Virus record (IMG/VR): IMGVR_UViG_3300050821_007334
Location: 1 to 29,831 of that record
DNA length: 29,831 nucleotides
From: a virus
Strand: one strand, 5' to 3'
Shown here: positions 8,109-27,672 of the stretch, one piece after another
Layout: each line of letters starts with the position of its first letter
How positions within the stretch are numbered: the first letter of the stretch is position 1
Position numbers and translations under genes: made by a program
Notes under the pieces: generated by a model
Told to the model about the DNA's origin: nothing
Databases searched by the model: none
What the model saw: the letters and a program-made list of their open reading frames with translations, nothing else

Positions 8109-8124
8109 CTTGTCAGTTGACAAG
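8109..8124. promoter_or_regulatory. CTTGTCA-N2-TGACAAG palindrome, copy 1
   Basis: A perfect 7-bp inverted repeat with a 2-bp centre (GT). Identical arms recur at 10890-10905 and 11824-11839. Here the right arm supplies TTGACA followed 18 bp later by GAGAAT, a plausible promoter for the rightward block. It is probably an operator overlapping a -35 box. Confidence 0.5.
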
Positions 8125-8153
8125 GGCCTTAGCTAAGAGAGAGAATGTTGACA

Positions 8154-8187
8154 GGTTGGTTTTGCCGAACCGACCGCAACCGAGAGG
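8154..8187 (+). promoter_or_regulatory. TTGCCG-loop leader, copy 1
   Basis: Stem GGTTGGTT/AACCGACC (one G-T pair) closes loop TTGCCG at 8162-8167. A 2-nt linker leads to AACCGAGAGG (8178-8187), 6 nt before ATG 8194. It is the first of eight canonical copies. Confidence 0.85.
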
Positions 8188-8193
8188 GCTTCA

Positions 8194-8478
8194 ATGTTCA
8201 CAAAACAGCAAATCGACAAGGCGATTGATCAAGAGGCGGCCGATTGGGCCGACTTTTTCAACGCTTCTGATCTGGAAGGCCGCAAAAGCGTGATGCGCGC
8301 GAATGTTGCGGTCGGATATCTTGTGCCGCTTCTGCCGTATCTCGACACAAGCGTGTTTGCCTTCTCTAACAGCCGCGACGGTCGCGTGATGGTTTACGGC
8401 GCGGTCATTGGCTTTCCGTCGCCTTCTGATTGCGTTTGGCTCATTCCCGGAACTTGGAACGTGTGGGGGTTGTCATGA
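8194..8478 (+). CDS. hypothetical protein, first gene of the leader regulon
   Basis: 94 residues (MFTKQQIDKAIDQEAADWADFF...), Trp-rich, ending PGTWNVWGLS. The N-terminal part is helical and charged; residues 45-60 are hydrophobic (VGYLVPLLPYLDTSVFAF). No family recognised. The start is fixed by the leader's GAGAGG. The stop overlaps the next ATG (ATGA), so the two genes are coupled. Confidence 0.72.
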   Translation: MFTKQQIDKAIDQEAADWADFFNASDLEGRKSVMRANVAVGYLVPLLPYLDTSVFAFSNSRDGRVMVYGAVIGFPSPSDCVWLIPGTWNVWGLS

Positions 8479-8717
8479 TCATTCAAATCCAGATCAGAAA
8501 CGTTTACGGGGAAGAAAAGGCTTACCCGATGAATGATGCGGCCAAGTGCATCGCGAACATCGCAGGCACAAAGACTTTGACGCGCTGCACCTTGCTTAAC
8601 GTGCTTGCGATGGGTTGCGACATTGAAGAGCTTGACCGATACGGCAAGCCCTCGCGCACAATCAAGGGCGGACCGGAACGCCGCTATGGTGATATCGCGC
8701 ATATCCGCATCGCCTGA
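8475..8717 (+). CDS. hypothetical protein coupled to the preceding gene
   Basis: 80 residues from ATG 8475 (MIIQIQIRNVYGEEKAYPMNDAA...), starting within an ATGA overlap. A longer in-frame ORF runs back into the previous gene and is rejected. The first 15 residues look like a beta strand pair, followed by helices. No family recognised. It has no leader of its own. Confidence 0.7.
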   Translation: MIIQIQIRNVYGEEKAYPMNDAAKCIANIAGTKTLTRCTLLNVLAMGCDIEELDRYGKPSRTIKGGPERRYGDIAHIRIA

Positions 8718-8739
8718 CGCTTTCAAACATCGTTCCCAT

Positions 8740-8807
8740 GGCGGGCGCCGAAAGGCTACCCGCCTTAGGGCGTTAGGAGGGGTTGCCGCCCCTCGCAAAC
8801 CGAGAGG
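8740..8807 (+). promoter_or_regulatory. two-hairpin leader, copy 2 (ArdC gene)
   Basis: H1 (8740-8764): stem GGCGGG/CCCGCC, a one-base C bulge opposite TA, inner stem GCC/GGC, GAAA loop. H2 (8777-8794): stem GAGGGG/CCCCTC, loop TTGCCG. AACCGAGAGG is at 8798-8807, 6 nt before ATG 8814. Confidence 0.9.
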
Positions 8808-8813
8808 TACACA

Positions 8814-9686
8814 ATGAAGCGCGACCTTTACCACGAAGTGACGCAACGCATTCTTGACCAGATGCAAGCCGGAGTCGTGCCTTGGCAGCAAGCATGGCGC
8901 GGAAACAACGCGATGCCGATGAATGCGGTTTCGAACCGGCCCTATTCCGGAATCAACATTCTGCTTTTCTGGCTCGGCGCCGACAAGGGCTATCCGACCG
9001 CGCGTTACCTGACGTTCAAGCAAGCTCAAGAGCACGGCGGGCACGTTCGCAAGGGGGAACACGGTCGCAAGGTCGTTTTCTTCAAGCAATTGACCGTTGA
9101 AGATAAGAACGGCGGGGATGACAAGACTATACCGCTGTTGCGAGAATACACAGTGTTCAACGTGGCACAGTGCGACGACTTGCCGGACCATATCGTCAAC
9201 GGCAAGGCGCTTGCCGCGCTGAACACGGATGAGCGCGACTCACTCGCCGATGCTTTCATCAAGTCGACGGGCGCCGACTTCCGGGAAGGTACGGGCAAGC
9301 CTTGTTACATTCCGAGCCGCGATATCATCTCGACTCCGGCCTTCGAGCAATATCGCAGCATGCCAGCGTTCTATGGTGACGTGTTTCACGAGCTAGTGCA
9401 CTGGACTGGTCACAAGTCTCGCCTTGATCGTGACAACGATATCGCGCGGCGCTTCGGCAACGTCGCGTATGCTGCGGAAGAGTTGGTTGCCGAACTTGGC
9501 GCGGCTTTCATCAATGCCGAGTTTGGCTATGACGAAACGCCACACAACGCGGCCTATCTTGCCAACTGGATTCAGTTGCTCAAGGATGATAGCCGCGCAA
9601 TCTTCACCGCGGCGAGCAAGGCGAGCAAGGCCGCTGAATATCTCCGAGGCTTGGCGATTGCCGAACCCATGGCCGAAGCGGCATAG
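8814..9686 (+). CDS. ardC: ArdC-type antirestriction protein
   Basis: 290 residues. The N-terminal half matches the ssDNA-binding ArdC N domain (VPWQQAW near residue 23, NRPYSGINILLFW, a YLTFKQAQEHGGHVRKGEHG block and VFNVAQCD). The C-terminal half is a zincin metallopeptidase-like domain with HELVHWTGH at about residues 192-200 and a downstream ELVAELGAAF. Such proteins protect incoming DNA of plasmids, ICEs and phages from host restriction. The length is typical. It has its own two-hairpin leader, suggesting tight control on entry. Confidence 0.92.
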   Translation: MKRDLYHEVTQRILDQMQAGVVPWQQAWRGNNAMPMNAVSNRPYSGINILLFWLGADKGYPTARYLTFKQAQEHGGHVRKGEHGRKVVFFKQLTVEDKNGGDDKTIPLLREYTVFNVAQCDDLPDHIVNGKALAALNTDERDSLADAFIKSTGADFREGTGKPCYIPSRDIISTPAFEQYRSMPAFYGDVFHELVHWTGHKSRLDRDNDIARRFGNVAYAAEELVAELGAAFINAEFGYDETPHNAAYLANWIQLLKDDSRAIFTAASKASKAAEYLRGLAIAEPMAEAA

Positions 9687-9707
9687 ATCGCCGCACATAG
9701 GCTTTAC

Positions 9708-9774
9708 GGCGAGCGGGGCAACCCTACTCGCCTTAAGGCATTAGAAGCGTTGCCGCGCTTCGTTAACCGAGAGG
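9708..9774 (+). promoter_or_regulatory. two-hairpin leader, copy 3
   Basis: H1 (9708-9732): stem GGCGAG/CTCGCC, C bulge opposite TA, inner stem GGG/CCC, GCAA loop. H2 (9744-9761): stem GAAGCG/CGCTTC, loop TTGCCG. AACCGAGAGG 9765-9774, 8 nt before ATG 9783. Both stems differ from copy 2 by compensatory changes. Confidence 0.9.
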
Positions 9775-9782
9775 GAAGATAA

Positions 9783-10019
9783 ATGAATCGAGACGCGAAA
9801 GAGGCTTTCATCGTTGCGCTAATCTGCAACGTGCAAGCCGATATCTTGGCCAAGGTGGCACAAATGCCGGAAGATTGGGACGGGCATGAATTGCGCCGCT
9901 ACATCGCGGATAAGTTCGCGGAAAGCGCAATGACCGTCGGGCGACCCGGACCATACGGCAAGCCATATGGAAAGCGATATCGTGCCTACAAAAACGCGGT
10001 CATTGTGCGCAATCTCTAG
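9783..10019 (+). CDS. hypothetical protein with its own leader
   Basis: 78 residues. The N-terminal half is helical (MNRDAKEAFIVALICNVQADILAKV) and the tail is Gly/Tyr/Arg-rich (GRPGPYGKPYGKRYRAYKN). No recognised domain. It is a single-gene unit between two copies of the structured leader; the start is fixed by GAGAGG. Confidence 0.72.
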   Translation: MNRDAKEAFIVALICNVQADILAKVAQMPEDWDGHELRRYIADKFAESAMTVGRPGPYGKPYGKRYRAYKNAVIVRNL

Positions 10020-10040
10020 CGCGCTCAACATAGGCTTTAT

Positions 10041-10106
10041 GGCGGGCACCTTAGGGTTACCCGCCTTAGGGCGTTAGAGGGCTTGCCGGCCCTCCTAACC
10101 GAGAGG
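10041..10106 (+). promoter_or_regulatory. two-hairpin leader, copy 4
   Basis: H1 (10041-10065): stem GGCGGG/CCCGCC, inner stem ACC/GGT, loop TTAG (the only non-GNRA loop). H2 (10077-10094): stem GAGGGC/GCCCTC, loop TTGCCG. AACCGAGAGG 10097-10106, 8 nt before ATG 10115. Confidence 0.9.
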
Positions 10107-10114
10107 GATACACC

Positions 10115-10378
10115 ATGGCCAAGCGCCAAACCGTCGAAGTCGCCAAGCTTAAGCGAATGGCGAACGAATATTTCCACAACAGCGGCGATCCATTCCGCGA
10201 TGCGCGTCGCGCGATTCAGTCGTTTGTTGAGGCAGTCTTGCACGATACGAACAACTACCGCGGGTTCGGTTACCTTACCGCCGAGCAGTCCAAGCCGGGA
10301 CACACGCTTGGCGTGATCCACAACTTCGAAACCCATGAACACGTTTTCCCGGACGATAGCCGAATTTATTTTCTGTAG
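10115..10378 (+). CDS. hypothetical protein with its own leader
   Basis: 87 residues. A basic helical N-terminus (MAKRQTVEVAKLKRMANEYF) is followed by FRDARRAIQSFVEAVLHDTNNYRG and a His/Asp-rich end DDSRIYFL. No family recognised. Single gene between leaders 4 and 5. Confidence 0.72.
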   Translation: MAKRQTVEVAKLKRMANEYFHNSGDPFRDARRAIQSFVEAVLHDTNNYRGFGYLTAEQSKPGHTLGVIHNFETHEHVFPDDSRIYFL

Positions 10379-10399
10379 TCCGGTTCACATTGGCTTTAC

Positions 10400-10468
10400 G
10401 CGCGGCGCCGAAAGGCTACCGCGCCTAAGGCATTAGGAGGGCTTGCCGGCCCTCTGCAAACCGAGAGG
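10400..10468 (+). promoter_or_regulatory. two-hairpin leader, copy 5
   Basis: H1 (10400-10424): stem GCGCGG/CCGCGC, C bulge opposite TA, inner stem GCC/GGC, GAAA loop. H2 (10437-10454): stem GAGGGC/GCCCTC, loop TTGCCG. AACCGAGAGG 10459-10468, 7 nt before ATG 10476. Confidence 0.9.
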
Positions 10469-10475
10469 AATCGAC

Positions 10476-10670
10476 ATGACGTTTAAGTTCTATTCAGATG
10501 CCGCGGCGCAGCTACCCGCTGATGCGAAGTGGTCCTGCTCGTTTGGCTATCCGGGGGAAGGCGGCTATTCCGAGTATCACCGCGACACCACGGGCAAGCG
10601 CTACGTTATCAGCAATGGCAAGTGGGACGCTATCGCGCCGTTCGACTGGACCGTCAAGGCGGAGTGCTGA
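10476..10670 (+). CDS. hypothetical protein with its own leader
   Basis: 64 residues from ATG 10476; a longer in-frame reading would start inside leader hairpin H2 and is rejected. The sequence is aromatic and Gly-rich (SCSFGYPGEGGYSEYHRDTTG) and looks beta-rich. No family recognised. Confidence 0.7.
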   Translation: MTFKFYSDAAAQLPADAKWSCSFGYPGEGGYSEYHRDTTGKRYVISNGKWDAIAPFDWTVKAEC

Positions 10671-10674
10671 ACCC

Positions 10675-10854
10675 ATGATGACAAAGGCCCAAATGGACCG
10701 GCTTGCGGAAAAGTACCATCGCCTAGTTTACGAGCTAGAGCGCGACGCGGACCGGGTTAAGACAAGTTCCCATCCAAGCTATGCGGCAACGATCCATGTG
10801 CTTGCCGTCGAACTTGCCAAGCTGGCGCGGGCAATCGAGGCGGAGATAACCTAG
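10675..10854 (+). CDS. hypothetical helical small protein
   Basis: 59 residues starting 4 nt after the previous stop (MMTKAQMDRLAEKYHRLVYEL...). Predicted as two helices, probably a coiled hairpin (residues 5-27 and 38-58). It has no leader and no clear ribosome site, so it is probably translated by re-initiation. No family recognised. Confidence 0.6.
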   Translation: MMTKAQMDRLAEKYHRLVYELERDADRVKTSSHPSYAATIHVLAVELAKLARAIEAEIT

Positions 10855-10879
10855 CCTTGTCTAATTCAAGACTCTGTGA

Positions 10880-10922
10880 TGGCCGTGCTCTTGTCACTTG
10901 ACAAGACGCGGCCATTCCTTTT
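10880..10922 (+). terminator. hairpin plus T-run containing palindrome copy 2
   Basis: Outer stem TGGCCG/CGGCCA and inner stem TCTTGTCA/TGACAAGA make a long hairpin (10880-10914) followed by TTCCTTTTTT. It fits an intrinsic terminator ending the 10476-10854 unit. The inner arms are the same CTTGTCA/TGACAAG palindrome as at 8109 and 11824, so it may act both as operator and terminator. Confidence 0.6.
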
Positions 10923-10934
10923 TTATACAACACG

Positions 10935-10965
10935 GGAACGTTGCCGCGTTCCTCGAACCGAGAGG
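10935..10965 (+). promoter_or_regulatory. TTGCCG-loop leader, copy 6
   Basis: Stem GGAACG/CGTTCC, loop TTGCCG (10941-10946), a 3-nt linker, then AACCGAGAGG (10956-10965). No GNRA hairpin; the terminator-like hairpin takes its place upstream. The leader identifies GTG 10976 as the start. Confidence 0.87.
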
Positions 10966-10975
10966 AGACTCGAAA

Positions 10976-11188
10976 GTGTACGATCTTAGCCAACCTAATG
11001 ACCGGCCCGGTCGTTGCGTCAAATGCCGCGGAACCGGGGTTTATTCGTGGGGCGCTTGCGTGAACGGCAAGATGCAAAACAGCGGCTCTTGCTTCTCTTG
11101 CAAGGGTACGGGCCGGCAATCGAGGCGCCAGATTGCCTGCAATCGCACCTATAACCGCCACAAGATCGCTTGGATTGCGAGGAGCTAG
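10976..11188 (+). CDS. DnaJ-type zinc-finger small protein, GTG start
   Basis: 70 residues. Two CxxCxGTG modules are visible (CVKCRGTG near residue 14 and CFSCKGTG near 40), the signature of DnaJ-type zinc centres; two more cysteines lie outside the modules. No J-domain is present. The GTG start at 10976 follows the leader's GAGAGG; the longer reading overlaps the leader and is rejected. It may be an RNA- or protein-binding zinc protein. Confidence 0.72.
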   Translation: MYDLSQPNDRPGRCVKCRGTGVYSWGACVNGKMQNSGSCFSCKGTGRQSRRQIACNRTYNRHKIAWIARS

Positions 11189-11191
11189 GCC

Positions 11192-11452
11192 ATGCGGAAA
11201 ATGACCTTCGAACGCGCGAAAACCCTTTACGTGCACCGCTTCACAATGGAGCACGTCCCGACATGGTCACGCAATTCGATTGACGGCAAGTATTACGCGC
11301 CGCAATTTCGCACGGATCGTGAGTGGTACGAGAACACGTATTTCCCGGGCGAGACCGGGCATCTTGGCGTTCCGGGCACTCCCGATTGCTACACGCGGAA
11401 TCAGTCTTGGCCGCTTGGCCATTGGCTGGATAAGCCTTTCAAGGCTGTCTAA
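11192..11452 (+). CDS. hypothetical aromatic-rich protein
   Basis: 86 residues, rich in Trp, Tyr and His (FTMEHVPTWSRNSIDGKYYAP...). AGGAG lies 6 nt upstream of ATG 11192, and the gene is separated from the previous stop by 3 nt, so the two form one unit. The segment DGKYYAPQFRTDREWYENTYFPG suggests a compact beta-rich fold. No family recognised. Confidence 0.7.
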   Translation: MRKMTFERAKTLYVHRFTMEHVPTWSRNSIDGKYYAPQFRTDREWYENTYFPGETGHLGVPGTPDCYTRNQSWPLGHWLDKPFKAV

Positions 11453-11466
11453 AGACGTTGCAGCCT

Positions 11467-11538
11467 ATGGCCCGCCTCGTGCGGGCCATAATCGGCAACA
11501 TCCTATGGTCATTGCCGTGACCAGCCAAAACCGAGAGG
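11467..11538 (+). promoter_or_regulatory. leader, copy 7, with upstream GC hairpin
   Basis: An upstream hairpin ATGGCCCGC/GCGGGCCAT (11467-11489) is followed by H2 with stem TGGTCA/TGACCA and loop TTGCCG (11512-11517). A 5-nt linker leads to AACCGAGAGG (11529-11538), 8 nt before ATG 11547. CGGCAA at 11493-11498 could pair with the H2 loop, an alternative fold unique to this copy. Confidence 0.85.
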
Positions 11539-11546
11539 ACTCGAAC

Positions 11547-11819
11547 ATGGCTAGACTCGTCTTAAGTGCCTATCAGGCCACGTGCCGCGATGGCGTGCAC
11601 CTGCAAGTCGCTATCATGGCGCAATCCCCCTTCCCCCAAAAGATCGTTGAAGTGCGCAACGTCGCGGACTGCGAGAAGGCCCTCGAAACGTACAAGGCCG
11701 AAGCGCAAGCGACCGGCAAGCCTATGGCGCTTTCCATGTCGATGGCGCACGGGGAGCGCAAGCCGCCCGGCTTTAACAAGCTCCGAGCCGCGAATAATTT
11801 CATCCCCATCAACCTGTAA
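11547..11819 (+). CDS. hypothetical protein with its own leader
   Basis: 90 residues from ATG 11547, fixed by the leader; the longer in-frame ORF begins in the previous gene and is rejected. It has an alternating strand-helix pattern (VHLQVAIMAQ..., QKIVEVRNVADCEKALETYKAEAQ, PMALSMSMAHGERKPPGF). The fold may be a small alpha/beta domain. No family recognised. Confidence 0.72.
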   Translation: MARLVLSAYQATCRDGVHLQVAIMAQSPFPQKIVEVRNVADCEKALETYKAEAQATGKPMALSMSMAHGERKPPGFNKLRAANNFIPINL

Positions 11820-11822
11820 CGA

Positions 11823-11897
11823 TCTTGTCAATTGACAAGAGGCCGGAGTCTTGATTGACTCCGGCCATGCCCGTTGCCGCGGGCACAAACCGAGAGG
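11823..11897 (+). promoter_or_regulatory. palindrome copy 3 plus leader copy 8
   Basis: An 18-bp palindrome (TCTTGTCAATTGACAAGA, 11823-11840) is followed by hairpin GGCCGGAGTC/GACTCCGGCC (11841-11866). H2 then has stem TGCCCG/CGGGCA with loop TTGCCG (11874-11879), and AACCGAGAGG is at 11888-11897, 8 nt before ATG 11906. Confidence 0.87.
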
Positions 11898-11905
11898 AAC
11901 TTTAG

Positions 11906-12175
11906 ATGTTCGATTCGAACGCAATGCTTGAATTGCAACACGTTTCGCGCGACCGCTATCAGCGGGCGGGCGGGGGTGGCGCGTTCAAGGTCTACAACAC
12001 AACCAAGGCCTACTATGACGCGCGCGGCTACAACGATCTTTCGCCGTTCCGCCGCGCCTGCATCGAAATGCTGCACGCATTCCGGCAAGCCGCGGAGTTG
12101 CAGCGCGAAGAGTACAAGATGACGTGCTGGCGAAAGCGGGAGGGTTTTCGGGATGACGAAGAAATCCCGTTCTAA
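11906..12175 (+). CDS. hypothetical protein with its own leader
   Basis: 89 residues (MFDSNAMLELQHVSRDRYQRAGGGG...). A Gly-rich turn at residues 22-26 separates two helical parts; the C-terminal part is charged (QREEYKMTCWRKREGFRDDEE). No family recognised. Its end overlaps the next gene by 23 nt. Confidence 0.72.
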   Translation: MFDSNAMLELQHVSRDRYQRAGGGGAFKVYNTTKAYYDARGYNDLSPFRRACIEMLHAFRQAAELQREEYKMTCWRKREGFRDDEEIPF

Positions 12176-12353
12176 TCGGCAAGCCAGCTTGCCCGGTACA
12201 GGCCCCGACGTTCGGGGCTTGCTCCGTTTGAAGGCCGCGGCGCCGATCAAGCCGCGCAAGCCACAAGCGCCCTGCGATGTCGGGCTATTCTCCGATGACG
12301 CGGATCAAATGGACCTAGTTGAAATGTTCCAAGACCCAATCGAGGAGGACTGA
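12153..12353 (+). CDS. hypothetical basic-then-acidic small protein
   Basis: 66 residues, overlapping the previous gene by 23 nt. The N-terminal half is basic and Pro-rich (KKSRSNRQASLPG, KPRKPQAP) and the C-terminal half strongly acidic (FSDDADQMDLVEMFQDPIEED). Likely disordered. No family recognised. Confidence 0.6.
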   Translation: MTKKSRSNRQASLPGTGPDVRGLLRLKAAAPIKPRKPQAPCDVGLFSDDADQMDLVEMFQDPIEED

Positions 12354-12357
12354 GGAA

Positions 12358-12537
12358 ATGTCACGCTTCAAAGCCGAGCAATCGCCTAGCCGCGACGAAT
12401 TGCTTAAGTTGCTCAATGCGGTGCTAGATGCCAATGACGATTTCCGCGCCGGAATGCCGGACGATTGGCAGGGCGACCCGCTGCAGGATGCTTGTATCGA
12501 AGCGCGGAACGCCATCAACGCAACCGGAAAGGACTAA
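12358..12537 (+). CDS. hypothetical acidic small protein
   Basis: 59 residues from ATG 12358, preceded by GAGGACTGAGGAA; an upstream in-frame ATG lies inside the previous gene. The protein is helical and acidic (RDELLKLLNAVLDANDDF..., DWQGDPLQDACIEARNAIN). No family recognised. It is two nt from the next gene. Confidence 0.6.
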   Translation: MSRFKAEQSPSRDELLKLLNAVLDANDDFRAGMPDDWQGDPLQDACIEARNAINATGKD

Positions 12538-12539
12538 CC

Positions 12540-12743
12540 ATGGCTCGCAAGAAACCACCGATTAAGCCGATGTCTACCTTGCGCTTTGATTTCGTCGACT
12601 CGCTCGAAAATCTCTGCCAGCAAGCGTTAATGTTGATGAGCGCGGTCGATTCCGTGCTTGAACGCGTACCTAGCCTGCCCGGTCACGATATCTTGGCCGA
12701 GCGCTCCGCAGCCTTGCGCGCGGCGCTGATATCGGAGGACTAG
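12540..12743 (+). CDS. hypothetical helical small protein
   Basis: 67 residues from ATG 12540. A basic start (MARKKPPIKP) precedes helices with an LCQQALMLMSAVDSVLERV core. No family recognised. Last gene before the variant leader. Confidence 0.6.
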   Translation: MARKKPPIKPMSTLRFDFVDSLENLCQQALMLMSAVDSVLERVPSLPGHDILAERSAALRAALISED

Positions 12744-12750
12744 CCAAAGT

Positions 12751-12810
12751 GGCCCGCGAGCTTGCCGGCCCGCGGGCCTGCCACCTAGCCACACACCAAG
12801 GCCCGAGAGG
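12751..12810 (+). promoter_or_regulatory. variant TTGCCG-loop leader, copy 9
   Basis: A longer hairpin GGCCCGCG/CGCGGGCC with an A-C mismatch and inner GC/GC closes the same loop TTGCCG (12762-12767). CCGAGAGG appears at 12803-12810 but is 36 nt from the loop and 17 nt from ATG 12828, so AAGGG (12816-12820) is the likelier ribosome site. It is a diverged or rewired copy. Confidence 0.6.
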
Positions 12811-12827
12811 GCACCAAGGGCAACCAG

Positions 12828-13028
12828 ATGACGGACAAGACAGATACCACAATCAAGGCCGCGATCTACCTCCTAGAGCGCGGTCTTGCCAGTTATTCGG
12901 AGATTGCCAAGCGAGCGGGGGTTAAGCGCCAAACGGTACGATGGTGGGCACGGAATCTTGATCCGGAGGCCCGGGAAGTGTATCTTAGGGAACTATGGGC
13001 CAAGGCCCTCGAACGGGCGGGGAAATGA
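12828..13028 (+). CDS. small HTH protein
   Basis: 66 residues with a helix-turn-helix at about residues 20-44 (ASYSEIAKRAGVKRQTVRWW), of the type found in resolvase-like and MerR-like DNA-binding modules. It is probably a transcriptional regulator. Its stop overlaps the ATG of the TetR gene (ATGA), so the two are made together and may regulate this block. Confidence 0.72.
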   Translation: MTDKTDTTIKAAIYLLERGLASYSEIAKRAGVKRQTVRWWARNLDPEAREVYLRELWAKALERAGK

Positions 13029-13588
13029 TGGCTTACCGTAAAACCGAGAAGGTGCTTTCAAAGATCGCCGCAACCCGCAATTTGCTGATCGCTTGCGCGA
13101 TCGATATCATGGCAGCCGATGGCATCGAGGCATTGACCATTCGCACGCTAGCCGAGCGCGCCGAAATCGCGACCGGCAGCATTTACATGCATTTCGCAGA
13201 CACCAAGGAATTGATCATTGCCGTCGCCACCGAATTGCGCGACCGCGATATCGAGGCAATGCACCAAGCTCGCGAAGTTGCACAACGGCCAAGCGACAAT
13301 CTCATTGCCGGTATTAGTATGTTCGCGCATATCGTGGCGTCCAAATACCGCCTGATGTCCGCGATCGGCACCATGCCGGCATATCGCGATCCAGTGCAGG
13401 ACGAACTTGCCAAGCTGATCAAAGCAACCAGCCCAAAGGAACGGCCCGCCATTCTCGCAGCGATGGCCTACGGTGCGATTTTCGAGACTGCCCGTCTTGG
13501 TGTGCGCGCCGAGCGAACGCTTGTGCTGTGCCTTCTGCGGGCGGTTGGCCTACCGCCTAGATGGTTAGCCGAGATTCCGGTATTCTAA
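13025..13588 (+). CDS. TetR/AcrR-family transcriptional regulator
   Basis: 187 residues. The N-terminal HTH (TIRTLAERAEIATGSIYMHFADTKELI, about residues 38-65) is a clear TetR motif; the rest is the helical ligand-binding domain. ATG 13025 overlaps the preceding stop; ATG 13028 is an alternative, and an upstream in-frame start lies within the previous gene. TetR repressors usually bind palindromes near their own operon; the CTTGTCA palindromes are candidate targets (inference). Confidence 0.85.
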   Translation: MMAYRKTEKVLSKIAATRNLLIACAIDIMAADGIEALTIRTLAERAEIATGSIYMHFADTKELIIAVATELRDRDIEAMHQAREVAQRPSDNLIAGISMFAHIVASKYRLMSAIGTMPAYRDPVQDELAKLIKATSPKERPAILAAMAYGAIFETARLGVRAERTLVLCLLRAVGLPPRWLAEIPVF

Positions 13589-18707: not shown

Positions 18708-18902
18708 CTAATTTTGGTTTCGTGGAGTCTCCTTCGGGACAGGCGAGCTAAGATAGTTGACGATGCGATCCAACACCGCGCGCAGGAACTGTTCACGTGG
18801 CAAGAACAGATCACCGGGATCAACAAAGCGACCAAGAGAAAAGACCAGCTTTCGATGTGTGATCGGCTTGCGCCGATCCGCCGGAGGGGGATGGTGTTTC
18901 AT
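18708..18902 (-). CDS. possible small basic protein
   Basis: 64 residues (MKHHPPPADRRKPITHRKLVF...) with AGGAAAT upstream. It sits between GTGNN array 2 and the 18639 gene. Its composition is plausible, but there is no overlap or family support. Confidence 0.42.
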   Translation of the reverse strand: MKHHPPPADRRKPITHRKLVFSLGRFVDPGDLFLPREQFLRAVLDRIVNYLSSPVPKETPRNQN

Positions 18903-18934
18903 GCGGGCAATTTCCTAACTCAATGGGAACGCAT

Positions 18935-19139
18935 GTGGTGTGGTGTGGCGCAAAGTAGTGTGCTGTGTGGCGCTGTGTCGTGCCGCGTCGTGGAGTGCTG
19001 TGCCGTGTCGGGGTGTGTTGCGTGGTGTTGTGGTGGACCGTCTTGTGCCGTGCCGTAGCGTGCCGTGCCGTAGTGTGGTGTGCCGTCGAGTGGCATGAGA
19101 TGTTGTGAGGTGCGATGATGTGCCGTGCGATGTAGTGCC
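18935..19139 (+). repeat. GTGNN degenerate pentanucleotide array 2
   Basis: Forty-one consecutive 5-bp units in one phase, most of them GTGNN, with a few GCGNN, ATGNN, GTANN or GTCNN units. It lies 3' of the leftward XRE gene (19364-19654) and 5' of the leftward gene at 18902. The right edge abuts the tRNA-like element at 19143. Confidence 0.87.
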
Positions 19140-19142
19140 CTA

Positions 19143-19215
19143 TGGCGCAGCCCCGGACCCTACTGCCGTAGCGACTCATCGCTGGTTATGAGTCGTGTGC
19201 GCGACCCGGGGCTGC
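19143..19215 (-). ncRNA. 73-nt tRNA-like hairpin element
   Basis: Ends GCAGCCC/GGGCTGC pair as an acceptor, followed by G and CCA. GTCG/CGAC can form a D-arm, and TCAT/ATGA an arm with an 8-nt loop. No TTC T-loop is present; CGGCAGTA occurs where a T-loop would be, as in the divergent tRNA-Lys. Alternatively it is one long hairpin with CGACTCAT/ATGAGTCG. Function unknown. Confidence 0.35.
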
Positions 19216-20075: not shown

Positions 20076-21326
20076 ATGTTGAACGTCAAAACCATTGAGG
20101 CCCTGAAGCGGCGGGACAAGGCCTATAAAGTCTCCGATGCCGAAGGCCTGTTCCTGTTCGTCACCACCACCGGGGCCAAAATCTGGCGGCTGGCCTATCG
20201 CTTTCAGGGCAAGCAGAAGGAACTGAACATCGGCCCCTATCCCGCGATCGGCCTGCTTGATGCCCGCAAGAAGCGCGACGATGCCAAACGGCTGCTCGCC
20301 AACGGCATCGATCCCGCCGCGGCTAAGGCGGAGGCCAAGCGCACGGAGGCTGCCCTCCGCCCTTTCGCCGAGTGGGCTGATGAATGGATGGAGAAGCAGA
20401 AAAACCTGCAGCCGCCGCTCAGTGAGCGCACCATTGTCGGCAAGCAGCGGTTCGTCGACTACCTGAAAGAGGAGTTCGGCACTAAGCCCTTGTCGGAGGT
20501 CAAGCGCAGCGATGTCATCGTGTACCTGCGGGAATTTGAGACCGAGGGTACCCTTGAAAACCGCGATCGGGTGCGATCGGCCGGCGAGAAGATTTTCGAC
20601 TATGCCGATCTCGACGGCACCATGGTCAATCCATTCCGTAATCTCGGCGCGCAGCTCATCGATAACAACTCCACGCCACGGCCGGCGCTGACCCGGGAAA
20701 AGGATGTAATGGGGCTGTTCCAGAAAATGGCCGTGCCATTCGAGCGCGGACGCTATCGCGATATCGTCGGGTACGCGCTGCGGTTCATCAGCCTGACCGT
20801 GGTGCGTCCGGGCGAGATCGCTAGCGCCGAGTGGGGGGACTTTGACTTCACGCTGGCGCGGTGGACCATTTCTGCCGAGAAAATGAAGATGGACAAGGAG
20901 CATGTCGTTCCGCTGTCGCGCCAGGCTCTTGCCCTCTTGGAGGAAGTCAAGCGGATCACCGGCCAGCGCCAATACGTGTTCTCTGCGACCAAGGATCAGC
21001 CGATCTCCGACATGGCACTATGCCGGCGGCTGCGTCATCTCGGCTTCGATACCGCCAGCCAGCATTGTGCACACGGTTTTAGGACCACGTTCTCGACGTT
21101 GCTCAATGCCGAGGTCGACGCCGAGGAGAACAAGCGCTGGGATGCCGACGTGATCGAGCTACAACTCGCCCATTTGGACGAGTCATCGGTCAAGTCGATC
21201 TACAACAGGACCGGTCCGCTATCGTTGTTTGCTGCACGCGCGCGGCTGATGCAGCATTGGTCGGACCGGATCGACACCATGGTCGGTGACAACGTGGTGC
21301 GTCTCGATAAGCGTGATGTGGCGTGA
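20076..21326 (+). CDS. int: P4-type tyrosine integrase
   Basis: 416 residues from ATG 20076, preceded by AACCCGAGAGG; an upstream in-frame ATG overlaps the arm repeats. An N-terminal DUF4102-type arm-binding domain spans residues 1-85 (VSDAEGLFLFVTTTGAKIWRL, LNIGPYPAIGLLDARKK). A core-binding domain follows, then the catalytic domain with Arg in VVRPGEI (about 245), HGFRTTF (about 331) and Tyr in SIYNRT (about 375). It catalyses site-specific recombination between attP and a tRNA 3' end. Its last codons lie in GTGNN array 3. Confidence 0.95.
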   Translation: MLNVKTIEALKRRDKAYKVSDAEGLFLFVTTTGAKIWRLAYRFQGKQKELNIGPYPAIGLLDARKKRDDAKRLLANGIDPAAAKAEAKRTEAALRPFAEWADEWMEKQKNLQPPLSERTIVGKQRFVDYLKEEFGTKPLSEVKRSDVIVYLREFETEGTLENRDRVRSAGEKIFDYADLDGTMVNPFRNLGAQLIDNNSTPRPALTREKDVMGLFQKMAVPFERGRYRDIVGYALRFISLTVVRPGEIASAEWGDFDFTLARWTISAEKMKMDKEHVVPLSRQALALLEEVKRITGQRQYVFSATKDQPISDMALCRRLRHLGFDTASQHCAHGFRTTFSTLLNAEVDAEENKRWDADVIELQLAHLDESSVKSIYNRTGPLSLFAARARLMQHWSDRIDTMVGDNVVRLDKRDVA

Positions 21327-21372
21327 AGTGGCGTGCCGCGTCGTGCCGTGAAGCGTAGTGTAGTGTCGTGCT
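21313..21372 (+). repeat. GTGNN array 3
   Basis: Twelve perfect-phase units beginning inside the last codons of the integrase; the integrase TGA is the TGA within a GTGAA unit. It is the one array not directly 3' of a leftward gene. Confidence 0.83.
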
Positions 21373-21444
21373 GAAAGCAGCGTGACGTCGGGCTGGAACC
21401 CCGAACGTCACGCCTAACCGCCGAAACCTTAACGGGAGATTTCA

Positions 21445-21747
21445 ATGGCTGAGAACATCGTTACGCTACATCCGGCGCCGGTCAAGCGCCCGCTAACGTC
21501 GGCCGAACGCGGTCGCGCATTCCGGCAACGCCAAAAGAACAAATCGGCACTCAAATCGGACCAACCTGTTGAAAAACCTAAAACGTTCGCGAACGTTCGG
21601 CCCACGTTCGCGAACACTGCGCCCACGTTCGCCGAGCTGGAAAGGTCGACCGCCGAACTTCTCGCCGCCTGCAAACGCGGCATCGACGCGGCGCGGGAAA
21701 TGAAGACCAGGATCGCGAACCGCCAGCGCGCGGGTGATGTGGCGTGA
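21445..21747 (+). CDS. hypothetical protein with 7-residue tandem repeat
   Basis: 100 residues, GGGAGAT upstream of the ATG. It has a basic segment LTSAERGRAFRQRQKNK (residues 17-33), then 21-nt tandem repeats (21583-21645) encoding TFANVRP, TFANTAP and TFAELER, then a helical basic end. The repeats contain TTCGCGAA palindromes. The gene ends DVA-stop in the same GTGATGTGGCGTGA sequence as the integrase. Family not recognised; possibly DNA-binding. Confidence 0.68.
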   Translation: MAENIVTLHPAPVKRPLTSAERGRAFRQRQKNKSALKSDQPVEKPKTFANVRPTFANTAPTFAELERSTAELLAACKRGIDAAREMKTRIANRQRAGDVA

Positions 21748-21985
21748 CGTGACGGGGCGTGCCGTGGTGCGGAGGGTTGTGTTGTGCCGAGTCGTGTCGT
21801 GGTGTGGTGTGAAAACGGTTGCGCTGCTGTCGTGTCGTGGTGTGAAGCGGGGTGACGTGCTGGGTCGTGAGGTGTGGCGGCATGACGTAACGTAGCGTGT
21901 TGTGTTGCGTTGCGGCGTGTTGTGACGTGGGGCGTCGTGAGATGCTGTGAAGTGGCGTGGGGTGTAGTGCTATGAGGTGCGGTGT
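21734..21985 (+). repeat. GTGNN array 4
   Basis: About fifty 5-bp units, with one interruption near 21810-21828. It begins inside the last codons of the rightward gene 21445-21747 and ends just 3' of the leftward gene at 21999. A convergent intergenic space filled almost wholly by the repeat. Confidence 0.87.
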
Positions 21986-21998
21986 AGTCAGGTGACGA

Positions 21999-22472
21999 TT
22001 AGCTGGACCGCTTCGGAACCAGACGGCCCATATTCGGGAGCGGTTTCGGAGCGGTCTGCATTGGAGCAGGCGCCTCGGTCTTGACCTGCGCCTCTCGCCG
22101 CATCAACTCCAAGATCGTGCGGTTGGTGGTGGTGATATGCTGGTCGGATTTCGACAGCCGGCCGAGATCGATGCTTTCGAGATGCTTCAGCTCGCGGCCG
22201 GCGCCGCGGAACACGCGCTTCTTGAATGCCTCGGGCTTGCGGACCTTATCCTGGTCGGTCATGCGCCTAAGACCTTGGCCCCAAACGCAACCGAATAGAA
22301 TCTCATTCTCGGCGAACAGCACGCGGCGTGCCGAAGGCAGCACCTGCTTGAGGCGCGGGATTGATACGCCGGCTTGCTTGGCCAGGTCTTTGTAGCTGAT
22401 CTCGCCATTGACGCCGCGCAGCGCCGCGATGACGTCGGCGGTGTCAGGCGAACGATCGAAGGTAAGGGGCAT
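21999..22472 (-). CDS. phage HTH-like protein
   Basis: 157 residues. The N-terminal 55 residues look like a winged helix (DVIAALRGVNGEISYKDLAKQAGVSIPRLKQVLPSARRVL). A basic middle is followed by KSDQHITTTNRTILELMRREAQ and a Pro-rich tail. It may be a DNA-binding regulator. It is the last gene of the leftward early operon and is bracketed by arrays 4 and 5. Start ATG 22472; ribosome site weak. Confidence 0.7.
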   Translation of the reverse strand: MPLTFDRSPDTADVIAALRGVNGEISYKDLAKQAGVSIPRLKQVLPSARRVLFAENEILFGCVWGQGLRRMTDQDKVRKPEAFKKRVFRGAGRELKHLESIDLGRLSKSDQHITTTNRTILELMRREAQVKTEAPAPMQTAPKPLPNMGRLVPKRSS

Positions 22473-22485
22473 CGGGCATTGTCCT

Positions 22486-22540
22486 GTGTTGTGCCGTGAG
22501 GCGAGGTGTAGCGATGTGTTGTGGCGTGAAGTGTCGTGGC
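22486..22540 (+). repeat. GTGNN array 5
   Basis: Eleven units in perfect phase: GTGTT, GTGCC, GTGAG, GCGAG, GTGTA, GCGAT, GTGTT, GTGGC, GTGAA, GTGTC, GTGGC. It fills the gap between the leftward genes at 22542-23105 and 21999-22472. Confidence 0.87.
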
Positions 22541-22541
22541 G

Positions 22542-23105
22542 TCAAACCTTTTCGTACTTGACCTTCAAGACCTCGAAGCGCCCGTTGAGGCCGCCCTTCT
22601 CGGGCCTGAACTGCCCGACGCCGACCGACCTTGCCGCGACGCCGAGCACTTTCTCGAACATCTCGTGCGACACCTTATCGTCCATGATGAAGAAGGTGGT
22701 GGTGCCGCCCCATTCCTGAATCTGCGGAAACGTGCGCGGCACGCGCTTTCCCGATCCGCGCACGCCATCGACATTGGCCGAAATCCTGATGCAGGGCATC
22801 TCGTCCTTGTGGACGCCGATCGACAAGTTCGCCTCGCAGACCACGTCGCTGACGAAATACTTGGTCAGGGTGGCGCGCTTGTTGTCGGAGTCCTTGATGT
22901 TCAGCCGCTTGGCCGCGGTGTCCATCGCCTGCTTGAAGGCCATGGCCGGGACAAAGACAACGCCGTCCTCGTCATAGTTGCACTTCTCGCGCCAGCAGCG
23001 CAGATCGTACTCACTCTCGGTTTCGCCGTCGAGTTTATCGGTGAAGTGCTGGCGCGACTGCGAGAGCGGCGCGGTTCCTCTGATCGTAACAGTAGCTCGG
23101 TACAT
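22542..23105 (-). CDS. phage hypothetical protein
   Basis: 187 residues. The layout suggests a beta-rich fold: RATVTIRGTAPLSQSRQ at the start, FVPAMAFKQAMDTAAKRL at about 50-68, a Gly/basic segment SGKRVPRTFP, and a conserved-looking end SVGVGQFRPEKGGLNGRFEVLKV. I recall this C-terminal pattern in phage unknowns but cannot name a function. Arrays lie on both sides. Confidence 0.72.
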   Translation of the reverse strand: MYRATVTIRGTAPLSQSRQHFTDKLDGETESEYDLRCWREKCNYDEDGVVFVPAMAFKQAMDTAAKRLNIKDSDNKRATLTKYFVSDVVCEANLSIGVHKDEMPCIRISANVDGVRGSGKRVPRTFPQIQEWGGTTTFFIMDDKVSHEMFEKVLGVAARSVGVGQFRPEKGGLNGRFEVLKVKYEKV

Positions 23106-23119
23106 TTTCCTATGCTCCA

Positions 23120-23264
23120 GTGGTGTGATGTGCAGCGGTGTGTCGTGCAGGGTTGTGATGGGCCGTGGGGTGCAGTAACGTGCTGTGTTGGGCCGTGCAG
23201 TGTTGTGTTGTGTAGTAGTGTGCCGCGCCGTGTTGTGTGGTGGCGTAACGTGCCGTGCAGTGTT
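23120..23264 (+). repeat. GTGNN array 6
   Basis: Twenty-nine units in one phase, with GCGNN, GGGNN and GTANN variants. It lies between the stop of the leftward excisionase-like gene (23266) and the start of the leftward gene at 23105. Confidence 0.87.
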
Positions 23265-26615: not shown

Positions 26616-26701
26616 GGCTGAGGTCTATTGATCCAAGCCCACAACAGTAGTCCGGCACCAAACCCGACCAGGAACCAGCCCACCAATTCCTCAGCCGACA
26701 T
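26612..26701 (-). CDS. 29-residue membrane peptide
   Basis: Begins MSAEELVGWFLVGFGAGLLL and ends WINRPQP: one TM helix with a short acidic start. ATG overlaps the preceding stop by 1 nt and its stop forms the GTGA of the HNH gene, so coupling on both sides supports it. Confidence 0.55.
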   Translation of the reverse strand: MSAEELVGWFLVGFGAGLLLWAWINRPQP

Positions 26702-27672
26702 CAACTCACGCTCCACGCTGGTGACGGGAATTTCGGATTGTCCATGCCCTCGGCCTTGAGCCGCGCAGCGAAGATCGCCTTGAGCCGGCGATAGCAGGGC
26801 AGCCGATGGAAGTCGGTCAGCACACGGCCGCCGAGCCAGTCGATGTACTCAGCACTCGCCGAGATCGCCATCAGGCACTTCTTGAACTGCTCGGTGTTCA
26901 AGACCGCCGCGCGCTTGGCGGTGCGATCCTGCTGCAGCACCAGGCGGCGGTACATCCACATGCACAGACAGAGGTTGAGACCGTTCCATAGCCGCGCATA
27001 GTTGGCGTCGCGGCCCCATGCACCATGCGCGAGATGCAAGAACTTGCAGAGGTTGGTGACCTCAAGGTCATCAATCTCCTTGGCAACCAGCGTTGCCGTG
27101 GTCGAACCCGAATGCCGGGCCGGCGTCTCCGGCTTCGAGCCCTGCCAGAGCTTGAGAACTGCCGACATGCTCACGATCGGCGCGCGGTCATTGCCCTTCC
27201 GTATCTGGTCATAACCGACGAAGGGACAGGTCTTGCCAATCACTTGCAAGCTATGGGTCGAAGCTTCCAGACCACGCAGCACGTCGTCGGGCCGCATGCG
27301 CACCAGCGATTGCTGCAGCAACACGAAGTCATCGGCCATATCAGCCATGCTGTCATAGGTGCAGGTCCGAACATCGGCGATGGCTTCGGGCAACTCCGAT
27401 ATCTTGAGTGACTCGATGCGGTGCTGGCCATCGACGAGATAAGTCACGCGATCGCCCTTCAGTTTGCCCAGCGTCAGTACGCCTGAGATGAAGCCGCCGT
27501 TGGCTTTCAGGTCTTCTGCCAGCGCACGCACCTTGTCGTTGACCCGAAGCGGGCGCTGGAACGGCGGGATCACCCAACTCGTCGCCTGATCCCGCGTGAA
27601 CAGCATCGTTTCCATGCTGGAGATCGCCGACTTCGGAATCTTGCGGGTCTTGTCCAATTGCACCACGGTCAT
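26701..27672 (-). CDS. DGQHR/ParB-like N-terminal domain protein
   Basis: 323 residues. The N-terminal part has a ParB/DndB-like fold: VIPPFQRPLRVNDKVRALAEDLKANGGFISG and the signature LVDGQHRIESL at about residues 78-88. The C-terminal 200 residues are helical with several Cys. Families with DGQHR occur in phages and in DNA-modification systems (DndB), but no dnd genes are near. Joined to NinB by ATGA. Confidence 0.75.
   Translation of the reverse strand: MTVVQLDKTRKIPKSAISSMETMLFTRDQATSWVIPPFQRPLRVNDKVRALAEDLKANGGFISGVLTLGKLKGDRVTYLVDGQHRIESLKISELPEAIADVRTCTYDSMADMADDFVLLQQSLVRMRPDDVLRGLEASTHSLQVIGKTCPFVGYDQIRKGNDRAPIVSMSAVLKLWQGSKPETPARHSGSTTATLVAKEIDDLEVTNLCKFLHLAHGAWGRDANYARLWNGLNLCLCMWMYRRLVLQQDRTAKRAAVLNTEQFKKCLMAISASAEYIDWLGGRVLTDFHRLPCYRRLKAIFAARLKAEGMDNPKFPSPAWSVS

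Follow-up and report, generated by a model that had tools for sequence, protein, structure and literature searches.

Repeated elements at gene starts and gene junctions are known from several phages and plasmids. In cluster K mycobacteriophages, a constant start-associated sequence (SAS) immediately precedes the start in numerous small non-structural genes; an inverted repeat, the extended start-associated sequence (ESAS), is frequently found just upstream, and its sequence differs between subclusters. T4-type promoter-stem-loop cassettes are intergenic hairpin cassettes that are tied to gene shuffling and carry an early promoter and a terminator-like stem. For hammerheads that flank single genes in prophages, the proposed role is to divide long transcripts into messages of gene length (PMC3088659). 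In plasmids of the pLS20 family, EGeRS1 and EGeRS2 are repeated before ardC and other establishment genes in mosaic gene sets; EGeRS1 is structured and has no detectable promoter, and EGeRS2 carries a promoter and an operator (PMC8708921). The HK022 put RNA, about 70 nt of phage early RNA with two hairpins, acts on RNA polymerase and occurs once near each early promoter (PMC9378689). Here, we describe the leaders of a gene array in 29,831 bases of virus DNA (the window; positions 1 to 29,831 of IMG/VR record IMGVR_UViG_3300050821_007334), whose genes include those for an integrase, an ERF protein and an exonuclease. In a group of uncultivated bacterial viruses, a standard folded RNA stands before many small genes, including an anti-defence gene. 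The hammerhead-like motifs that share the slot of this RNA in one virus suggest that a long message is divided into one message per gene and that the genes can be swapped as cassettes.

Results

Eight genes of the window, one of which encodes an ArdC-type protein, are each preceded by a hairpin with the loop TTGCCG (hairpin 2, HP2) and, 3' of it, by the ribosome site AACCGAGAGG (Table 1). A previous reading of this DNA from its letters alone (the sequence-only reading) had listed these hairpins, loops, ribosome sites and starts, and we located all of them in the window where it had placed them. The HP2 stems are 6-8 bp long and differ in sequence, and their 3' ends lie 2-5 nt from the ribosome site and 19-24 nt from the start codon. 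Elsewhere in the window, TTGCCG is never flanked by a stem of 4 bp or more, all eight occurrences of AACCGAGAGG in the window stand before gene starts, and randomly shuffled windows contain a mean of 0.055 TTGCCG loops with stems of at least 6 bp, compared to the eight observed.

Four of these leaders (those of genes 8814, 9783, 10115 and 10476) hold a larger element, in which a second, upstream hairpin (hairpin 1, HP1) and a linker precede HP2; neither had been part of the sequence-only reading. From its base upwards, HP1 consists of five lower pairs, a U/U mismatch, six G-C-rich pairs, an internal loop C/UA, three or four pairs and a tetraloop, which is GNRA in 34 of 38 copies and UUCG in one. 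HP1 is followed by a single-stranded CRUUA linker and then by the G that opens HP2, for a total length of about 60-95 nt. Further viruses with HP1, reached through relatives of the CxxC protein encoded by gene 10976 (present in 28 further viral loci), keep HP1 and the linker and have other HP2 loops, often AUNYC, and the ribosome site GCAAGGGGAA. The total stands at about 39 HP1 copies on about 20 virus contigs, a count biased towards the search pattern because the copies were partly found with it; this pattern prescribed no pairing partner in the lower helix and nothing in the inner stem.

HP1 is a well-supported RNA motif that is absent from Rfam. In an alignment of 26 copies, 97.5% of cells are paired, compared to 77.6% after shuffling and at most 57% when the partners are slid, and 11 of the 14 pairs have changed on both sides. 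The lower helix contains 29 U-G or G-U cells compared to nine unpaired ones, nearly all with the U on the 5' side, and wobble pairs were never seen among the upper pairs. Because the lower-helix wobbles would be A-C on the opposite strand, the fold is that of the sense RNA. This lower helix replaced a less well supported alternative, a small hairpin formed by the 3' strand of HP1 and the linker. Searches of Rfam 15 with the window at E up to 10, and with the leader regions alone, gave only chance-level matches far below cut-off, and HP1 and HP2 of the related viruses matched nothing in Rfam. The DUF3085 motif that the sequence-only reading named as a candidate is not borne out, as no Rfam family matches even in a lax search of the leader regions alone.

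The position of HP1 is fixed relative to the upstream gene. Of 35 parsed copies, 30 start 14-17 nt past the stop codon and one starts 10 nt past it; the other four lie farther from it, and their sequence shows a further stop at a distance of about 15 nt. With a ribosome at the stop codon, HP1 would probably just be able to stay folded. One interpretation of fixed spacings combined with freely varying stems is that HP1 and HP2 merely keep the ribosome site from pairing with neighbouring sequence, as a passive insulator with no cut and no reader that would allow a gene to be placed at any position. In line with this, folding gave an openness of the start region of 0.56 compared to 0.51 with shuffled leaders, and a variation between upstream contexts of 0.073 compared to 0.108. 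However, this effect is small and is absent in two of the eight leaders, and insulation leaves the conserved linker, the C/UA internal loop and the constant loop unexplained. We consider this interpretation unlikely.

Gene order varies between these viruses. ArdC and genes 10976, 11906 and 12153 recur in many of these viruses in differing order. In one virus (L136), HP1 leaders stand before two neighbouring genes; another (L137) lacks the gene between them, and its single leader is a recombinant of the 5' half of the first L136 leader and the 3' half of the second. This recombinant, together with the homologous genes in differing order in related viruses, would also be expected if the units were recombination cassettes at the DNA level, like T4 promoter-stem-loop elements or integron attC sites, with the hairpins as by-products. 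That explanation is very unlikely: the wobble pairs are compatible only with the sense strand, pairing survives flips that reduce DNA homology, and the copies lie in the sense direction between stop and start codons.

A relative of the window found through its TetR protein (L305) has the same array, with an HP1 copy at one junction and four type II hammerhead-like motifs at other junctions (L305:4815-6040), where they lie between the stop codon, which they directly follow, and a AACTGAGAGG-type ribosome site. These motifs have GAAA, a closed stem III ending U-C and a closed stem I, with CUGAUGA in three and CCGAUGA in one; stem II varies (GGCC/GGCC and GGUC/GACC), and a hammerhead fold is predicted for all four. 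A hammerhead descriptor search of 819 kb found only these four motifs, and none in five shuffle sets. HP1 itself is not a hammerhead, as it is one irregular hairpin with no three-way junction, and the descriptor search of the window found none. The presence of hammerhead-like motifs in the same slot suggests that HP1, the linker and HP2 also mark a cut. As a separate observation, the other upstream hairpin of the gene 11547 leader (Table 1) recurs at a junction in L305 (L305:7128-7172), directly after the stop codon, with the same GTTGC-AGCC-stem-ATCG-GCAAC organization; these are the two full copies seen.

HP2 is also maintained by compensatory change. A near-identical virus (L131) has the same leaders as the window, and two diverged viruses (L128 and L129) have two HP2 copies each, with the same loop and ribosome site. 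In an alignment of the 12 copies from the window, L128 and L129, both sides have changed in all six stem pairs, and 93.9% of cells are paired compared to 49.6% after shuffling. This covariation and the RNA-level pairing support the proposal of the sequence-only reading that the RNA fold is selected, and its view that a set of small genes including ArdC shares one leader also holds. In L305, the leaders have TTGGCG loops and seven AACTGAGAGG ribosome sites. Each lineage thus keeps a single loop and a single ribosome site, and both change when lineages are compared.

Because loop and ribosome site stay constant while the stems vary, and because both differ together in L305, something appears to read them as sequence. 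The sequence-only reading had proposed a common reader of the loop, a protein or a small RNA; reading at the sequence level gains partial support, and a small RNA does not, as a search of the window for an antisense RNA to the ribosome site gave no convincing candidate. Pairing of the loop with the ribosome site was rejected because the orientation is wrong, and a single-stranded DNA promoter of the Frpo type was rejected because the stems are too short and not conserved, leaving no room for promoter elements. If the reader were a virus protein that binds the TTGCCG loop and AACCGAGAGG and sets translation of the whole array, close to what that reading held, the invariance of loop and site in 12 copies from three diverged viruses with changing stems, and the joint difference in L305 (TTGGCG with AACTGAGAGG), would be accounted for, and the CAGCAA loops before TGAAAGGACAA sites in another virus (L161) look as if each lineage had its own reader. 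Yet no candidate RNA-binding protein was found, the companions of the TTGSCG group being only DNA-binding types (helix-turn-helix [HTH] and TetR), HP2 ends too far upstream to cover the ribosome site, and HP1 and its spacing from the stop codon are left unexplained. Such a translational regulon is rather unlikely. The constant loop and ribosome site suggest a lineage-specific reader in addition to the processing proposed below. The L161 leaders (L161:5950-7870) form an unrelated set before five genes, with varying stems and a AAAGGACA-type ribosome site.

The leaders fall into two classes. Promoter leaders stand behind terminators and contain a palindrome whose sequence is shared within a virus and varies from virus to virus (CTTGTCANNTGACAAG in the window; GCCTAGGC or TCCAAATNATTTGGA in other viruses). 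The three copies of CTTGTCANNTGACAAG in the window (Table 1) are likely operators of one repressor. In the leader of gene 8194, a -10-like GAGAAT ends at 8146, and the predicted promoter would start the RNA at about 8154, the first base of HP2; a promoter start at HP2 is weaker for gene 10976 and was not seen for gene 11906. HP1 leaders lie inside operons, no such promoter was seen there, and just eight of 38 HP1 copies have even a run of four T within 90 nt upstream. The same gene can carry either class: ArdC has an HP1 leader in the window and a promoter leader elsewhere, and gene 11906 has a promoter leader in most viruses and an HP1 leader in two (L140 and L265). Because the promoter leaders of the AAGGGG viruses often lack a good HP2, its presence in both classes is a trait of the TTGSCG group.

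In early operons, a pair of neighbouring hairpins of about 75 nt recalls antitermination elements that act on RNA polymerase, such as lambdoid nut sites and HK022 put, which likewise has two stem-loops in about 70 nt of RNA (PMC9378689). However, antitermination would not call for an element at each junction, terminators were not seen within the operons, the stems vary freely, and the boxA-like string CGCTCTTA of some copies falls in the covarying lower helix. We regard this explanation as very improbable.

A ninth, altered copy of the leader, noted in the sequence-only reading, is real, and the same special leader precedes the HTH gene in L128, L129 and L305; the L305 version has a TTGGCG loop and TGAGAGG. 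A match to it in L263 is due to chance, as the fold is absent. The pair of HTH and TetR genes that follows is also found in L128, and a relative of the TetR protein in L305.

Outside these viruses, searches found little. The exact loop-plus-site pattern without a start codon gave at least 118 stretches in viral contigs, with no real stem among those listed, and with a start codon it gave 99 stretches in about 85,000 bacterial and archaeal genomes, with no hairpin among the matches listed. A shallow first look with the HP1 model and protein 10976 at 385 alphaproteobacterial genomes found neither, which does not prove absence from prophages. Searches of isolate phages and plasmids with blastn and tblastn gave nothing useful except ArdC itself, and a composite query of related HP1 leaders gave only a 31-base partial match in plasmids. 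Bradyrhizobium phage BDU-MI-1 has part of gene 11192 in common with the window and lacks the leader. From gene resemblance, our guess is that the host is an alphaproteobacterium. Sub-threshold matches to suhB/mmgR, an alphaproteobacterial small RNA family with a cut-off of 41 bits, were seen in two related viruses, at L136:4572-4646 (minus strand; 37 bits) and L275:5019-5094 (31 bits).

The window has several other features. Twelve consecutive tRNA genes lie on the minus strand at 1-2500. Low-complexity stretches recur at 2800-2970, 18900-19180, 21200-21900 and 22400-23260, with open frames that are Cys/Val/Arg-rich on one strand and His/Thr-rich on the other. The protein encoded at 26701-27672 weakly resembles the GmrSD N-terminal domain, with a match just short of the cut-off.

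Table 1. Positions of leader elements and associated genes in the window
Feature	Position	Strand	Remarks
Palindrome CTTGTCAGTTGACAAG	8109..8124	.	overlaps -35 (TTGACA 8117); presumed operator/promoter of first leader (class P)
HP2, gene 8194	8154..8175	+	loop TTGCCG, 8 bp stem
Ribosome site AACCGAGAGG, gene 8194	8178..8187	+	
HP1 before ArdC	8734..8770	+	irregular hairpin, GAAA loop, C/UA internal loop; 16 nt past upstream stop codon
Linker CGTTAG before ArdC	8771..8776	+	single-stranded CRUUA; last G opens HP2 in related viruses
HP2, ArdC gene 8814	8777..8794	+	loop TTGCCG
Ribosome site AACCGAGAGG, ArdC	8798..8807	+	
ArdC-type protein (ArdcN + MPTase-PolyVal)	8814..9686	+	E 1e-34 and 1e-40
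HP1 before gene 9783	9702..9738	+	GCAA loop
Linker CATTAG before gene 9783	9739..9744	+	G 9744 doubles as first base of HP2
HP2, gene 9783	9744..9761	+	loop TTGCCG
Ribosome site AACCGAGAGG, gene 9783	9765..9774	+	
HP1 before gene 10115	10035..10071	+	UUAG loop
Linker CGTTAG before gene 10115	10072..10077	+	
HP2, gene 10115	10077..10094	+	loop TTGCCG
Ribosome site AACCGAGAGG, gene 10115	10097..10106	+	
HP1 before gene 10476	10394..10430	+	GAAA loop
Linker CATTAG before gene 10476	10431..10436	+	
HP2, gene 10476	10436..10455	+	loop TTGCCG
Ribosome site AACCGAGAGG, gene 10476	10459..10468	+	
Palindrome CTTGTCACTTGACAAG	10890..10905	.	in terminator-like hairpin, then T-run; presumed terminator/operator/promoter, leader of gene 10976
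HP2, gene 10976	10934..10953	+	loop TTGCCG
Ribosome site AACCGAGAGG, gene 10976	10956..10965	+	
Other upstream hairpin, leader of gene 11547	11457..11499	+	GTTGC-AGCC-TATGGCCCGC...GCGGGCCATA-ATCG-GCAAC
HP2, gene 11547	11506..11523	+	loop TTGCCG
Ribosome site AACCGAGAGG, gene 11547	11529..11538	+	
Palindrome CTTGTCAATTGACAAG	11824..11839	.	followed by 10 bp hairpin 11841-11866
HP2, gene 11906	11868..11885	+	loop TTGCCG
Ribosome site AACCGAGAGG, gene 11906	11888..11897	+	
Ninth special leader, HTH gene 12828	12749..12812	+	long hairpin, TTGCCG loop, then GCCCGAGAGGGC
HTH protein and TetR-type protein	12828..13588	+	overlapping ATGA

Discussion

The wider comparison favours RNA processing combined with cassette exchange over a translational switch because of the spacing of HP1 from the stop codon, the hammerhead-like motifs of L305 and the recombinant leader. 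Our best explanation, which we hold tentatively and with a little less than even confidence, is that the leaders are junctions between cistrons at which the message is processed, so that each cassette gene has its own message, and that these junctions also serve as crossover points. In an operon, the module runs from the stop codon through about 15 nt, HP1, the single-stranded CRUUA and HP2 to a lineage-specific ribosome site and the start codon. We infer a cut, its position and its agent (host RNase E or the RNA itself): a cut in the linker would divide the polycistronic early message, leaving the upstream message with HP1 at its 3' end and the following one with HP2 at its 5' end, each hairpin protecting its end, so that each gene would have its own message with the same ribosome site. 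For genes with their own promoter, transcription would start at HP2 and give nearly the same 5' end. Because the junctions are all alike, they could act as crossover points for the gain, loss and swap of genes.

The core that RNase E recognizes is RN|WUU (PMC5222698). It is fully matched by 21 of 38 linkers, and nearly all linkers retain the U at +2. Several observations weigh against processing. The RNase E core is not matched by linkers with CGUU or CCAUU, and processing alone gives no reason for the invariance of TTGCCG and AACCGAGAGG. The evidence from the hammerhead-like slot comes from one virus, L305, and the activity of its motifs is uncertain because the one Rfam Hammerhead_II match scored 28.6 bits, below the cut-off of 37, all four carry an additional U that separates CUGAUGA from stem II, with CCGAUGA in place of CUGAUGA in one of them. 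A further possibility, which we think improbable, is that HP1, CRUUA and HP2 form a new self-cleaving RNA, or a new and dedicated substrate for a nuclease of virus or host, that replaces the hammerheads at these junctions, such that RNA-cutting modules are interchangeable within one virus group and genes plug-and-play.

If the junctions are both cut and crossed over, this would explain how fast-changing small early genes, probably with anti-defence roles, can be expressed alike in any order. The role of repeated start-associated sequences, and of hammerheads between phage genes, becomes a testable question.

The leaders described here share with SAS and ESAS a constant sequence directly before gene starts and an often variable inverted repeat just upstream. 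The ESAS are 17 bp imperfect repeats of conserved sequence, whereas the leaders described here have free stems, fixed loops, a second hairpin with a linker, and covariation. The window leaders show neither the SAS consensus GGGATAGGAGCCC nor conserved 17 bp inverted repeats, since their sequence differs and their stems are not conserved. SAS and ESAS belong to other viruses, and we saw no sequence relation. Unlike T4-type cassettes, HP1 leaders carry neither a promoter nor a terminator-like stem. The prophage hammerheads (PMC3088659) are likewise structured RNAs at the junctions of phage gene arrays, but HP1, the linker and HP2 have no hammerhead core. EGeRS1 and EGeRS2 similarly precede ardC, although EGeRS1 is 420-750 bp long and conserved in sequence (PMC8708921), and the element described here is far shorter, belongs to phages and stands at nearly every gene of the array. 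The put RNA of HK022 is similar in size, number of hairpins and presence in phage early RNA; its hairpins are different, and here the ribosome site follows directly. Because SAS/ESAS and EGeRS are arranged alike and neither shows this RNA, the leaders represent a new RNA motif in a known sort of arrangement.

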